Positions 4,961 through 58,303 of a DNA stretch of 64,000 nt are shown here, piece by piece. The notes beneath the pieces are model-generated. The model was not told the origin of the DNA. It made no database searches and saw only the letters and a list, made by a program, of their open reading frames with translations. The stretch's first letter is position 1, and every line of letters starts with the position of its first letter. The position numbers were made by a program, and so were the translations under genes. The DNA comes from Pseudomonadota bacterium (lineage in GTDB: Bacteria; Desulfobacterota; Desulfobulbia; Desulfobulbales; Desulfocapsaceae). The DNA lies in contig JAHJLI010000255.1 of the NCBI GenBank assembly GCA_018821785.1, forward strand, positions 22,102 through 86,101, written 5' to 3'.

Positions 4961-5078
4961 TTGCTTTTGGATTTGCTATGAATCTGTGTTACTATTTTTT
5001 TCATACTCCCAGCAAAGGGGCTAAGTACCTTGAAAATTCATCGAGGTACCCAAAGACGAGTAAAATATCTCTCTGACC

Positions 5079-5354
5079 GTGCTGCTGAAAAAGCGCGAAG
5101 AAGATCGGGCTATCAAGGCTAAGCAGATACTGTCCAACACCACCAAACTCATCCTGCCGTTTCTCGACCGACTCAAAGGAAGCAGGCTCACCGAACAACA
5201 GGTGGTGCTTGTCGATATCCTCTACACCAATATCGCCGAATTGACATCCCCCTTTGCCAACAATTTTTCCACCAGGCTAGGTCGCCTCACCCCTGCAGAA
5301 ATCCAGGTAGCCAACCTGGTTAAAATCGGAAAGAGAACCGGGATAGAACCTTGA
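5079..5354 (+). pseudogene. Truncated PAS/LuxR-type regulator remnant (linker plus start of LuxR HTH)
   Basis: LLKKREEDRAIKAKQILSNTTKLILPFLDRLKG...LTPAEIQVANLVKIGKRT resembles the linker and first HTH helix of PAS-LuxR proteins; PAS domain and rest of HTH absent. Confidence 0.6.
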
Positions 5355-5419
5355 GATAGATTATTTTTCTTTAAAAAGCCAAGAAAACAATCTGCAAGGT
5401 ACACATAGTTCTAAATGTT

Positions 5420-10354: not shown

Positions 10355-10428
10355 CAAAGTACTTTAGAAATTCGTTTCTTGTTTTTCGAACGTATGTCGT
10401 GAAAGAACCTTTTACCGTTTATTGGAGG
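10355..10428 (-). repeat. Copy B of dispersed hairpin element (divergent)
   Basis: AGTACTTTAGAAATTCGTTTCTTGTTTTTCGAACGTATGTCGTGAAAGAACC aligns with copy A at 58221-58303 in the same orientation. Confidence 0.7.
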
Positions 10429-10494
10429 CATTACCGATAGCGCCAAATGGCTTTCCTCTTAAATATAACGAACTTTTGCTCGATGTATTTTGCA

Positions 10495-10567: not shown

Positions 10568-10652
10568 TGGTGCCGAAGGCCGGACTCGAACCGGCACGGG
10601 TCTCCCCACACGCCCCTCAAGCGTGCGCGTCTACCAATTCCACCACTTCGGC
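10568..10652 (-). tRNA. tRNA-Leu (anticodon GAG), CCA encoded
   Basis: Reverse complement GCCGAAGTGGTGGAATTGGTAGACGCGCACGCTTGAGGGGCGTG...GTTCGAGTCCGGCCTTCGGCACCA; class II with variable arm, loop CTTGAGG. Confidence 0.93.
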
Positions 10653-30281: not shown

Positions 30282-30713
30282 CTATCGACGAATAAGATTA
30301 CTATGGTCAACCTTTATACAACGATCCATGACTACAAAAACTCCCATGTTTCTTGCAAGTTGCGCTGCTTCTTCGTTTATGATACCTTGCTGCATCCAAA
30401 TTGCCTTAGGAAGAGTATGTAATGCAAGTGCCTCTTCCACAATTGTCATAACTTCCTCTGATTTTCTGAAAATATTAACAATATCAACTGAAAAAGGCAA
30501 AGCCACAAGGGCCGGATAACACTTCTTGCCAAGAACCTCATTCTGCCCGGGATTAATGGGATAGACCGTATATCCGGCAGCAACAAGGTACCGACCAACC
30601 ATATTGCTGGGTCTATTTTCTTTCGGAGACAAGCCGACAATTGCAATGGTGGTTGCCCCCTTAAAAAGGTTTGATATTTCAGAAGATTGAATCAAAGAAG
30701 AAAATGTCTGCAT
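30282..30713 (-). CDS. CoA-binding domain protein (YccU family)
   Basis: [83 protein letters not shown]. Confidence 0.88.
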
Positions 30714-30765: not shown

Positions 30766-30848
30766 TGCTAACCTCAATAACGGGATAAATTTCTTGACGA
30801 AATACATTTACAAGAGACAAGAAACTAATTTCTAAGGTACTAATTTTA
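30766..30848 (+). repeat. Copy C of dispersed hairpin element
   Basis: AACGGGATAAATTTCTTGACGAAATACATTTACAAGAGACAAGAAACTAATTTCTAAGGTACTAA. Confidence 0.8.
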
Positions 30849-30984: not shown

Positions 30985-31851
30985 ATGAATTTTCAAAATA
31001 TTATCTTTGAGTTGAGTCAATATTGGGCCGAGCAGGGGTGTGTTATCCAACAACCCTACGACATGGAGGTCGGTGCCGGAACTTTCCATCCCGCCACGCT
31101 GCTTAGGGCTTTGGGCCCAGAGCCTTGGAAATCTGCTTATCCACAACCTTCCCGTCGCCCTACCGACGGCCGCTATGGCAACAACCCCAACCGACTGCAA
31201 CACTATTATCAATACCAAGTTGTCATTAAACCTTCACCTTTGAATGTCCAAGAATTGTATCTTGGCAGTCTCGAAAGATTCGGACTCAATCTGCTTGATC
31301 ACGACATCAGGTTTGTCGAAGATGACTGGGAATCACCAACCCTTGGGGCCTCAGGCCTTGGGTGGGAAGTATGGCTGGATGGAATGGAAATTACCCAGTT
31401 TACCTATTTTCAACAGGCAGGCTCAATAGAGCTCTACCCGACGACGGTTGAAATAACCTATGGCCTCGAGCGTATTGCCATGTATCTTCAAAGCGTTGAA
31501 AGCGTCTATGATATTGCCTGGAATGAGCAAATAACCTATGGAGAGATCTTTCACCAAGCGGAAGTTGAGTTTTCCACCTTTAATTTCGAAGAGGCCAATG
31601 TCGAAAAGCTTCTGATGTTTTTTGACACCTACGAAGCAGAGGCTCTTAGACTCGTTGACAAAAATTTGATACTCCCAGCTTACGACTACTGCCTGAAGTG
31701 TTCACACACCTTTAATCTTCTCGATGCCCGCAAGGCAATCAGCGTTAATGAGCGAACCCGATATATTGGTCGCATTAGAAACATTGCGAGAAAAGTTGCC
31801 GAAGCCTATGTTGAGCAACGTCGAAACATGGGACATCCTTTGTTAACATGA
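30985..31851 (+). CDS. glyQ: Glycine--tRNA ligase alpha subunit
   Basis: [46 protein letters not shown]...[19 protein letters not shown]-type sequence over full length. Confidence 0.95.
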
Positions 31852-31904
31852 TGCCTCAGCATGCAAATTCACAAGGCCAAACTTTCAGATACCATTCTTC
31901 TCGC

Positions 31905-31976
31905 TATCGAGTACAATGTTCTTTCCAAGTTGTGTGCGAGAAAAAACAAGAAATGAATTTCTAAGGTACTGAAACT
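31905..31976 (+). repeat. Copy D of dispersed hairpin element (left arm degraded)
   Basis: AAAAAACAAGAAATGAATTTCTAAGGTACTGAAA right arm matches the family. Confidence 0.7.
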
Positions 31977-32031: not shown

Positions 32032-32129
32032 TGGCGGAAGTGCATGGGAATCGAACCCACCTAACGGGCTATTAACCCGCTACACCGGATTTGAAGTCCG
32101 GGAAAGCCACCAGTGCCCTATCCACTTCC
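32032..32129 (-). tRNA. selC: Selenocysteine tRNA (anticodon TCA)
   Basis: Reverse complement GGAAGTGGATAGGGCACTGGTGGCTTTCCCGGACTTCAAATCCGGTGTAGCGGGTTAATAGCCCGTTAGGTGGGTTCGATTCCCATGCACTTCCGCCA; long acceptor, long variable arm, 98 nt, loop CTTCAAA. Confidence 0.95.
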
Positions 32130-33758: not shown

Positions 33759-33835
33759 TGGTGGCGATGCAGGGACTTGAACCCCGGACTCTGCGGATAT
33801 GAGCCGCATGCTCTGACCAACTGAGCTACATCGCC
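33759..33835 (-). tRNA. tRNA-Met (anticodon CAT, probable elongator), CCA encoded
   Basis: Reverse complement GGCGATGTAGCTCAGTTGGTCAGAGCATGCGGCTCATATCCGCAGAGTCCGGGGTTCAAGTCCCTGCATCGCCACCA. Confidence 0.93.
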
Positions 33836-33952: not shown

Positions 33953-33962
33953 CTATGATATC

Positions 33963-34041
33963 CTACCCCCATAAGGGAGGATAAGTACCTTCTCGAAATT
34001 CATACTTAAAAACCCCGCTATGAATTTCTAATGTACTAAGG
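33963..34041 (+). repeat. Copy E of dispersed hairpin element
   Basis: TACCCCCATAAGGGAGGATAAGTACCTTCTCGAAATTCATACTTAAAAACCCCGCTATGAATTTCTAATGTACTAA aligns along its length to copy A reverse complement. Confidence 0.85.
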
Positions 34042-34070: not shown

Positions 34071-35744
<1,674 letters not shown>

Positions 35745-42340: not shown

Positions 42341-42435
42341 GGAGAATTTCTAAGGTTCTAACCCCGACTAACGGGATAAGAACCGTCACGAAAATCTTTC
42401 TTAAAAAAACAAGAACGATTTTCTACGGTTCTAAA
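42341..42435 (+). repeat. Copy F of dispersed hairpin element, preceded by a second partial right arm
   Basis: CCCCGACTAACGGGATAAGAACCGTCACGAAAATC...AAAAAAACAAGAACGATTTTCTACGGTTCTAAAG; extra GAATTTCTAAGGTTCT at 42343-42359. Confidence 0.85.
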
Positions 42436-43252: not shown

Positions 43253-45142
43253 TTATTCACCAACCAGCGCATCAACATCATTGACGGCGGCGCTGATGAG
43301 CCTCTCCACCGCTTTTTCCGCCGTCACATCGGTGATATATTCCAGAGCGCCTTTGATGTTGCCCTTGGCATCCTTGATCGGGGAAGCGGTATATTTGATC
43401 GGCATGACCTTGCCGTTTGGCTTGGCGGTTGTCTCTGCCTGGACGATGGAATCAGTTCGCATGGCCTTGCCGCAGGCGCAGTTATCGGTTCGACAGTGGT
43501 CGGTCATAAAGAGGTCGTAGCATTTCCGACCGACGACTTCATCCGGGGTCCGCCCCAACACCGCCGCACCCGCCGGATTCATAAAGGTGATACTATAATC
43601 GGTATCTATCGACATTATCGGCGTCGGAATGGTATTGAGGTTTTCAATCTTTTCATCGGCCGCCTGCCGCTGTTTGGCCTCCTCGGTCATATCGAGCACA
43701 TATTCCAACGCCCCTTTGATATTGCCTTTGGCGTCTTTAATCGGCGCACCGGTATACTTGATGGGAATAATCACGCCTTCCGTCGGTCGGGCGATAGTGT
43801 GCTCGGTCACCACCGAGTCGGTGCGCATTGCCCGACCACAGGCACATTTATCTGTTTTACAATGGGGTGTCTTAAAGAGATCGTAACATTTTTTACCAAT
43901 CACCTCGTCCGGTGTCGATCCTACAACCGCGGCGCCGGCCGGATTCATAAAGGTGATGGTGAAATCGGTGTCGATAGCGAGAATCGGAGTGGGAATGATA
44001 TTGAGATTTTCAATCTTTTCTTCGGCGGCCTGTTTCTGTTTTGCCTCCTCCGTCATATCGAGAACAAACTCAAGGGCCCCCTTGATATTGCCCTTGGCAT
44101 CCTTGATCGGTGCCCCGGTATACTTGATCGGGATGATCACTCCTTCGGCCGGACGAGCGATGGTTTGCGCGGTGACCACCGAGTCGGTGCGCATGGCTCG
44201 GCCCAGGGCACACTTTTCTGTCCGACAATGGGGCGTCTTGAACAGATCATAGCATTTCCTGCCGATGACCTCATCCGGTGTCTTCCCGACAACGCCGGCT
44301 CCTGCCGGATTCATATAGGTGATGGTATATTCGGTGTCAATGGCCAGCACCGGCGTTGGCAGGGCATTGAGGTTCTCAACCTTCTCGTCGGCCACCTGCT
44401 TTTGTTTCACTTCTTCCGTCATATCGAGGATATATTCAAGGGCACCCGTGATGTTTCCCTTGGCGTCCTTGATCGGTGCACTAGTATATTTGATCGGCAC
44501 AATGACCCCATCCCTCGGCCGGGCGATGGTCTGCTCCGTCACCACGGAATCGGTTTTCATTGCCCGGGCACAGGCACATTTTTCGGTCTTGCAATGCGGC
44601 GTCTTAAAGAGGTCATAACATTTTTTCCCGATCACTTCATCGACTGTCATTCCGGCTACTGCAGCACCAGCCGGATTCATGAAAGTGATGGAAAATTTGG
44701 TATCGATCTCCATGATCGGCGTAGGGATAACGTCCAGGTCCGTCGACAACTGCCTCAATTTGGCCTCGGTGGCCTTTTGGTTGCTGATATCATTCAGGGT
44801 CACAAAGGTGTTGCTGCTGCCATTCATCGGTATGGCATTGCTGGTAAAGAAGGCAATACTTTTATCCCCGTTCTTATATATCACTTCGGAGGAAACCGAT
44901 TTATTGATCCTTCTCGATTTTTCAACCGGACAATCTTTTGTTCCACAAAGCTGCGTGGGACAGGCCTCTTCACAGGTCATCTTGGCCAGGAGCGCCTCCC
45001 TGGTAAGGTTGAATCGTGTCAGAAATGGCTGGTTGGCCCAGGTGACCACCTTTTTTTCATTAACGATATAGCTCGGCTCCAAAAGCAGTTCTAAACATGC
45101 CGTATCCTCTTCCATATTTCTTGTCCTTTGCTTATTTTCCAT
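43253..45142 (-). CDS. Multi-PAS sensor protein (five PAS units, four near-identical, Cys-rich)
   Basis: Repeated ITFMNPAGAAVVGxTPDEVIGKKCYDLFKTPHCKTxKCACxRAMxTDSVV. Confidence 0.88.
   Translation of the reverse strand: MENKQRTRNMEEDTACLELLLEPSYIVNEKKVVTWANQPFLTRFNLTREALLAKMTCEEACPTQLCGTKDCPVEKSRRINKSVSSEVIYKNGDKSIAFFTSNAIPMNGSSNTFVTLNDISNQKATEAKLRQLSTDLDVIPTPIMEIDTKFSITFMNPAGAAVAGMTVDEVIGKKCYDLFKTPHCKTEKCACARAMKTDSVVTEQTIARPRDGVIVPIKYTSAPIKDAKGNITGALEYILDMTEEVKQKQVADEKVENLNALPTPVLAIDTEYTITYMNPAGAGVVGKTPDEVIGRKCYDLFKTPHCRTEKCALGRAMRTDSVVTAQTIARPAEGVIIPIKYTGAPIKDAKGNIKGALEFVLDMTEEAKQKQAAEEKIENLNIIPTPILAIDTDFTITFMNPAGAAVVGSTPDEVIGKKCYDLFKTPHCKTDKCACGRAMRTDSVVTEHTIARPTEGVIIPIKYTGAPIKDAKGNIKGALEYVLDMTEEAKQRQAADEKIENLNTIPTPIMSIDTDYSITFMNPAGAAVLGRTPDEVVGRKCYDLFMTDHCRTDNCACGKAMRTDSIVQAETTAKPNGKVMPIKYTASPIKDAKGNIKGALEYITDVTAEKAVERLISAAVNDVDALVGE
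43280..44740. repeat. Internal tandem repeat, about 366 bp per unit, encoding four PAS domains
   Basis: Four successive near-identical units; antisense ORF starts at 43953 and 44319 are 366 bp apart. Confidence 0.85.
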
Positions 45143-57309: not shown

Positions 57310-58206
57310 TTATTTCACCACATCGGGGAAAAAGAGCTGTTTTCCTTCCAAACGGAAACCAGCAATCACCGCCTGACCCTTTGCCGAAGTCAACCAATTG
57401 GCAAACGTCATTGCCAGATCGTGCTGGACATGCGGGTGTTTTGCTGGATTTACCGGGATAAGGCCGTAAGGATTGGCGAGTAGCTCATCACCCTCGGACA
57501 GTATCTCCAGGTCAACCGCCGGAGTCTTGCCATATTTATAGGAGATGTAGGTGCCGCGATCGGCAAGGGCGTAGGCCTTTTTTTCATCGGCATAGGTGAT
57601 GGTCTTGCCCATACCCTGGCCGATGGACACATACCATTTATCGGAATCGGCCGGTTTTTTCGCTGGAACAGTGGTTTCCTTACCATCCTTGGTGAGTTTC
57701 AGGCCGTGGTCGACAAGGGACAGTCGAGTGGCGGCCCATAGCTCCTGCTCCTTGGTGTGGGTGCCGCTGTCATCGCCACGTGAAATAAACAGGGCCTGCG
57801 CCGCAGCTATTTTCTTCATTGCCTCGGCAGAATTCCTCAAACCTTTGATGCCCGCTGGATCGGTGGCGGGGCCGATTAGGACAAAATCGTTATGCATCAC
57901 GGCAAAACGTTTGGTGCCGAAACCTTTGTCGACAAAATCCTTTTCCCGATCAATGGCATGGACAAAAATCACATCGACGTTTCCATCGATGCCGTCACGG
58001 ATGGCTGCCCCTGTACCCTTGGCGATCACCTTGACTTTGATCCCCTCATCTTTCTCAAAGGCCGGAAGCAGCACACCGAGGAGCCCGGACGATTCAGTGC
58101 TGGTGGTTGTTGACATCTTCAGAATTTTTTCCTCTGCCGCAACCGGCGTGGTAAAACCCGCCGCCAGCACAAACAGACCTGCCACTGCCAAAGCTATTCT
58201 TTTCAT
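57310..58206 (-). CDS. tupA: Tungstate ABC transporter substrate-binding protein
   Basis: LKMSTTTSTESSGLLGVLLPAFEKDEGIKVKVIAKGTGAAIRDGIDGNVDVIFVHA; signal peptide from 58206. Confidence 0.88.
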   Translation of the reverse strand: MKRIALAVAGLFVLAAGFTTPVAAEEKILKMSTTTSTESSGLLGVLLPAFEKDEGIKVKVIAKGTGAAIRDGIDGNVDVIFVHAIDREKDFVDKGFGTKRFAVMHNDFVLIGPATDPAGIKGLRNSAEAMKKIAAAQALFISRGDDSGTHTKEQELWAATRLSLVDHGLKLTKDGKETTVPAKKPADSDKWYVSIGQGMGKTITYADEKKAYALADRGTYISYKYGKTPAVDLEILSEGDELLANPYGLIPVNPAKHPHVQHDLAMTFANWLTSAKGQAVIAGFRLEGKQLFFPDVVK

Positions 58207-58220
58207 GTTGTTACTCTCCG

Positions 58221-58303
58221 TTTTTAGTACCTTAGAAATTCGTTTCTTGTTTTTTTCCCAACGAATTTCGTTTAGGTACTTATCCCGTTTACCGGGGGTA
58301 AAA
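58221..58303 (-). repeat. Copy A of dispersed hairpin element
   Basis: AGTACCTTAGAAATTCGTTTCTTGTTTTTTTCCCAACGAATTTCGTTTAGGTACTTATCCCGTTTACCGGGGGTAAAAT; overlaps the 3' end of the 58272-59222 ORF. Confidence 0.88.

Follow-up and report, generated by a model that had tools for sequence, protein, structure and literature searches.

A dispersed, recently mobile REP-like palindrome in the intergenic DNA of a Desulfobulbales bacterium

In a 64,000-nt stretch of bacterial DNA (hereafter the window), similar hairpin-forming sequences lie between genes at several places and on both strands, which raises the question of whether they form one repeat family and, if so, of what kind it is and how it spreads. 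The preliminary description listed six copies with a consensus read by eye, and proposed a MITE, a REP-like element or a structured intergenic RNA. The window is part of contig C308 in the 5.47-Mb draft genome (315 contigs) of a sulfur-cycle bacterium. With a covariance model made from 28 genomic copies and four window copies, the copy number in this genome comes to at least 150. Also, the 18-mer of the right end, with up to three mismatches, gives 164 genome matches compared with 7 for the reversed control, and a 27-base pattern from the left half gives 101 compared with 0. The hairpins are real, are not produced by chance and belong to one repeat family, a mobile DNA element about 74 bases long, which is neither confined to the six listed copies nor without significance.

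All six copies align with one another and were recovered by the covariance model, in different states of preservation. The best of the window is a full-length copy at 58224-58301(-) (91.9 bits), just upstream of the Shine-Dalgarno sequence of a PBP_like_2 gene (solute-binding-like, PF12849) that starts at 58206(-). A second full-length copy, at 42358-42434(+) (85.7 bits), provides the TAG stop of an MCP-signal-domain gene (PF00015; 42431-43243(-)) through its right end, whose complementary strand reads TTAG. This copy is abutted by a right-end remnant of another one at about 42343-42361 (GAATTTCTAAGGTTCTAA), CTAA being common to both; locus L097 shows the same arrangement of a right-end remnant next to a full copy with a common CTAA. 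The third full-length copy, 33962-34039(+) (73.0 bits), belongs to the subfamily with CCCCC..GGGG and GAAATTCAT and has a tRNA-Met gene (33759-33835,-) on one side and the GroEL gene (34071-35726,-; PF00118), facing it with its 3' end, on the other. A diverged copy at 30767-30843(+) (63.7 bits) is found between a gene with a CoA-binding domain (30282-30713,-; PF13380) and glyQ (30985-31851,+; PF02091).

The remaining two listed copies are poorer. The one at 10356-10431(-), downstream of a tRNA-Leu gene (10568-10652,-), is decayed and scores weakly (46.7 bits), its left half being degraded and its right half intact. The other, at 31894-31972(+) between glyQ and a tRNA-Sec gene (32032-32129,-), is a half-copy only (32.3 bits), with a good match in the right ~32 nt (31941-31972; AAAAAACAAGAAATGAATTTCTAAGGTACTGA). 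Moreover, two weak remnants had escaped the first list, a probable internally deleted one at 5003-5052(+) (CCCAGCAAAGGGGCTAAGTACCTT..GAGGTACC; 19.8 bits, window E-value 0.053) and a probable one of the CAATCTG subfamily at 5311-5405(+) (..AAAAGCCAAGAAAACAATCTGCAAGGTACACA; 18.6 bits, window E-value 0.1), a subfamily common to L083 and L076 from other genera. As separate observations, tRNA genes occur near three of the six window copies, the window having three tRNA genes, of which the one for selenocysteine (32032-32129) is beside the half-copy; and the ORF at 43253-45142(-) contains direct repeats of ~366 nt (43317-44502; 3-4 copies, 71-79% identity) that represent a tandemly repeated protein domain.

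The consensus read by eye is replaced here by CTAACCCCGGTAAACGGGATAAGTACCTTnACGAAATTCGTTTATAAAAAACAAGAAACGAATTTCTAAGGTACTAA, which in parts reads CTAA/CCCCGGTAAACGGG ATA AGTACCTT nAC GAAATTCGTT TATAAAAAACAAGA AACGAATTTC T AAGGTACT AA, the slash marking the left junction. The element measures 72-74 nt and is laid out as CCCCGGTAAACGGG-ATAAGTACCTTnACGAAATTCGTT-loop-AACGAATTTCTAAGGTACTAA, and the two hairpins noticed at first, a small one of the CCCn/nGGG type and a long one, are retained. The left hairpin is CCCG-GTAAA-CGGG, and the right one, which contains a small internal loop, comprises 8 + 10 base pairs. In a second subfamily the corresponding parts are CCCCC..GGGGG and GAAATTCAT/ATGAATTTC, and in a third, from other genera, ACAGATTATTTTCTTG / CAAGAAAACAATCTGT, with a partly paired loop. 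Some copies have an extra small hairpin, attached through a ACTCTTTTCAG linker, which either precedes the element or, in BRH_c16a, sits in the long hairpin's loop. The copies L245, L282, L285 and L288 of BRH_c16a carry the hairpin CACCCCC-TTGA-GGGGTG and the ACTCTTTTCAG linker within this loop, and in L027, L056, L070 and L124 the CACCCCC-TTGA-GGGGTG module sits upstream instead; since the module is found in either position, the family is modular. In several copies (L044, L058, L086, L106, L111 and L117) the nAC internal loop is missing and the long hairpin is a near-perfect palindrome (AAGTACCTTAGAAATTC), so that both strands read nearly alike.

Both hairpins are backed by compensatory base changes. 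RNAalifold returned no consensus pair from the first alignment, which is why the structure was assigned manually before being tested. Across species, both sides are altered in 11 of the 22 pairs, compared with 4.3 in shuffles. Pairing is present in 96.8% of the alignment cells, and sliding the partner lowers this to about 33-55%; the covariation score is 0.169 in register and 0.012-0.026 after sliding. The contrast is somewhat flattered, since this alignment had been adjusted to the structure; on the original MAFFT alignment, the hand-set structure leads to the same picture. Also, both strands fold strongly as DNA or RNA (z about -5 to -6). Within the window, folding is no longer significant for the copies at 30767 and 10356, and the half-copy at 31894-31972 folds no better than shuffled sequence.

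The ends of the element and its target can be read from a comparison with same-genus genomes whose flanks are about 80-90% identical. Exact empty sites are found there, an empty site reading CTAA/AGGAG and a filled one CTAA[CCCC...GGTACTAA]AGGAG. At locus L057, genome G004 is empty, with ...GCGTTGAG-CTAA-AGGAGAGGATGACATG (GAG-CTAA-AGGAGAGG), and the host genome is filled, with ...GCGTTGAG-CTAA[CCCCGG...GGTACTAA]AGGAGAGGATGACATG. In addition, the copy of G001 at this locus is internally deleted and 55 nt long, G003 has a variant with two small hairpins, and no copy is present in G012, G006, G010 or G008; this mixed occupancy among relatives shows that the site was struck repeatedly or that copies were lost precisely. 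The L057 occupant of G011 was considered as a second family and rejected, because it is single-copy and its folding does not exceed that of shuffled sequence; a decayed copy is the most likely reading. Locus L115 is a bare TTAA in G001 and G004. For the window itself, the site of the copy at 58224 is empty in G001 and G006, with a net difference of about 73-74 nt, and that of the copy at 30767 is empty in G001 (GATAA/CAATTTCAC, net about 73 nt), this copy being absent in G004 as well. The region of the half-copy 31894-31972 is 104 nt shorter in G004, and the copy at 33962 has no counterpart at that place in G001.

The left tetranucleotide, scored in 108 copies, is rich in CTAA and TTAA (C in 63%, T in 68%, A in 80% and A in 70% at its successive positions), and the right end is CTAA in 63 of these copies. 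Head-to-tail dimers join at CTAA (L251, 692-840; window, 42343-42434). Insertion is precise, 3' of a (C/T)TAA-like tetranucleotide, the element's own last bases being CTAA, and the insertions are recent relative to the species of the genus. Neither the empty sites nor the tetranucleotide comparison reveals a target-site duplication beyond the YTAA-like motif, the left and right tetranucleotides being uncorrelated over the 108 copies (2.53 vs 2.50 shuffled, p 0.30). Moreover, terminal inverted repeats are absent, the ends being dissimilar (5' CCCCGGTAAACG vs TTAGTACCTTAG for the reverse complement of the 3' end).

With respect to genes, 100 of the 108 copies are intergenic, although coding sequence makes up 84.5% of the sampled DNA (binomial p about 1e-70). 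The dispersal in both orientations described for the window holds more widely, orientation to the flanking genes being balanced (31 sense, 25 antisense, 22 divergent and 15 convergent). Many copies lie directly ahead of ribosome-binding sites or just past stop codons. In ten copies the insertion target is itself a TAA stop, and in ten the element gives a TAG stop (from TTAG) to the gene that reads in from the right, so that about 20 of the 108 copies, one of them in the window, are located at a stop codon. Because the element ends in CTAA, which is TTAG on the other strand, a stop codon there survives insertion in either orientation. By one definition the share at stop codons is 18.5% vs 7.2%; under a matched definition the enrichment beyond the YTAA rule is 1.28-fold (p 0.24), and a preference for stop codons is thus not claimed.

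Beyond the host, and in line with the preliminary suggestion to look among related Desulfobulbales, copies occur patchily across this order, in 31 of the 57 genomes searched (host included), and range from 1 to at least 84 per positive genome, these counts being made with stricter filters than that of the host; several genomes of the same genus have 0 copies. When 84,980 species were scanned for an exact 23-mer, matches came from records named Desulfobulbaceae, Desulfocapsaceae, Desulfocapsa, Desulforhopalus, Desulfobulbus and Desulfoprunum, and also from MAGs named 'Desulfobacterales' or 'delta proteobacterium'. The only 'Chloroflexi' match (L262, MGMJ01000095.1, GWC2_73_18) is a full-length copy of 86.9 bits, and its contig is probably a misbinned one from Desulfobulbales. 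No copy was found in plasmids or in the viral contigs of IMG/VR, the latter searched with the exact pattern, and none of 4227 Rfam models matches above its gathering score. In a limited search of the open literature, no REP family described for Desulfobulbales was found.

Regarding the enzyme that moves the element, the host genome has three intact RAYT-like genes plus fragments, and a Y1_Tnp search of the whole genome gives no match on the window's contig, so the early remark that the window holds no transposase stands for the Y1 class, to which it is hereby limited. At about 68 Y1/RAYT loci of the host and its relatives, adjacent copies do not exceed chance (2 found), and the flanks of these loci are not repeated within the sampled DNA. 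In two copy-bearing genomes, G005 (97% complete, 71 copies) and G022 (16 copies), the RAYT search gave no match at E<=1; for Y1_Tnp, G005 again gave none at E<=0.001, and G022 a single weak match. No autonomous IS with the element's ends is present among the Y1 loci read, most genomes having been read only in part. An autonomous element split into halves was also considered and rejected, as the left-only and right-only sites are truncated or decayed copies.

In the single-strand transposition of IS200/IS605, a tetranucleotide target lies at the left end, a terminal tetranucleotide at the right, and the hairpins are subterminal (PMC6006769). The element is best explained as a non-autonomous mobile palindrome of the REP or IS200/IS605-derived sort. 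Since it follows the same insertion rule, we favor, with somewhat better than even confidence, that it is moved in trans by a Y1-class HUH enzyme. Such a tyrosine endonuclease (IS200 TnpA or RAYT-like) would recognize the hairpin on single-stranded DNA, would cleave after CTAA and would join the cleaved strand to another YTAA. Against this speak the lack of copies beyond chance by Y1/RAYT loci, the results for G005 and G022, the missing GTAG tag, the lack of room for a guide sequence, and the orientation of copies, which has no bias with respect to local GC skew although a lagging-strand bias is expected for the IS200/IS605 class.

The same mobile palindrome could instead depend on an enzyme outside the Y1 class, perhaps a tyrosine or serine recombinase with a CTAA crossover core, or another nuclease. 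The many copies of G005 and the Y1/RAYT loci without a cognate neighbor would fit such a mobilizer, and recombination at a 4-nt core would also give CTAA at both ends. However, the left tetranucleotide varies and the right one is conserved, as expected if the left one is the target, and no linked recombinase is seen. Moreover, REPtrons are reportedly deleted in many E. coli strains, where RAYT can go while the REPs stay (PMC3733652); this weakens the argument from G005, whose lack of RAYT is not decisive because a past enzyme, now lost, could have acted. We consider a non-Y1 mobilizer possible but doubtful. Similarly tentative would be the proposal of an orphan Desulfobulbales palindrome, with modular hairpins and its own stop-preserving YTAA target rule, spread by neither a RAYT/IS200-type Y1 nor a DDE transposase, which is suggested by the copies that thrive in a nearly complete genome without a detectable Y1 protein.

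Classical MITEs (ERIC, Correia, NEMIS and the like) are short, non-coding, palindromic and intergenic. The element is alike in all of these traits, is dispersed and has an imperfect long inverted repeat, and a 4-bp YTAA duplication made by a DDE transposase would be one reading of the CTAA found at either end. Nonetheless, a strict MITE, which has both terminal inverted repeats and a target duplication, is quite improbable, given that the ends are not inverted repeats, that the two tetranucleotides are uncorrelated, and that the small left hairpin is outside the inverted repeat yet within the inserted DNA. Finally, a structured cis-regulatory RNA, or a terminator or processing signal, spread by selection and not by transposition, would agree with the compensatory changes, the stable RNA fold and the many copies next to ribosome-binding sites and stops, but is very hard to reconcile with both orientations in every gene arrangement, no T-tract, empty orthologous sites between well-conserved flanks and no Rfam family. 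Accordingly, among the three options of the preliminary description, mobility and dispersal are borne out and REP-like fits best, whereas a strict MITE, or RNA as the primary identity, does not hold.

These results add to the Desulfobulbales a well-delimited, high-copy and recently mobile REP-like element. Close relatives with exact empty sites define where it ends and what it targets, which provides a testable case for the spread of REP families that lack a transposase. Moreover, insertion that preserves stop codons explains how more than 150 copies are tolerated in compact gene arrays.

The known systems closest to the element are REP/REPIN/BIME sequences with their RAYT (TnpA-REP) enzymes, for which the GTAG and CGTC super-families (PMC3733652), the REPINs (PMC3116915) and the HuH survey (PMC6006769) form the comparison set. 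Like them, it is a high-copy extragenic palindrome with compensatory stem changes, which occurs as singlets and in tandem or mosaic forms, is patchy across species and is probably non-autonomous. However, a REP unit has one hairpin in about 20-40 (up to 65) nt, compared with two different hairpins in 72-74 nt here, and the hairpin foot in the consensus is ATAAG (TTAG on the other strand) and not a GTAG (GTRG) or CGTC tag. Unlike GTAG REPs, the element was not found beside RAYT genes and occurs in a genome without a detectable RAYT; CGTC REPs are likewise reported without a dedicated transposase (PMC3733652), although their tag, size and hosts differ. Lacking both tags and a linked RAYT gene, the element is not filed as a known REP family. 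Integron attC sites were also compared and rejected, since the copies stand singly and dispersed and no GTTRRRY core is present in the right end GGTACTAA. With the non-autonomous IS200/IS605 derivatives (peel-and-paste, Y1 HUH) it has in common that insertion takes place 3' of a fixed tetranucleotide and duplicates no target, that the element ends in its own tetranucleotide, and that there are subterminal hairpins at both ends. It differs from them in that one base only separates the YTAA target from the left CCCG stem, so that there is no left guide tetranucleotide, and in that no full-length IS with its ends was found among the Y1 loci read. The element is thus REP/IS200-like, yet lies outside the described REP families by its size and by the absence of their tags and RAYT linkage, and outside strict MITEs by the absence of terminal inverted repeats and of a target-site duplication.
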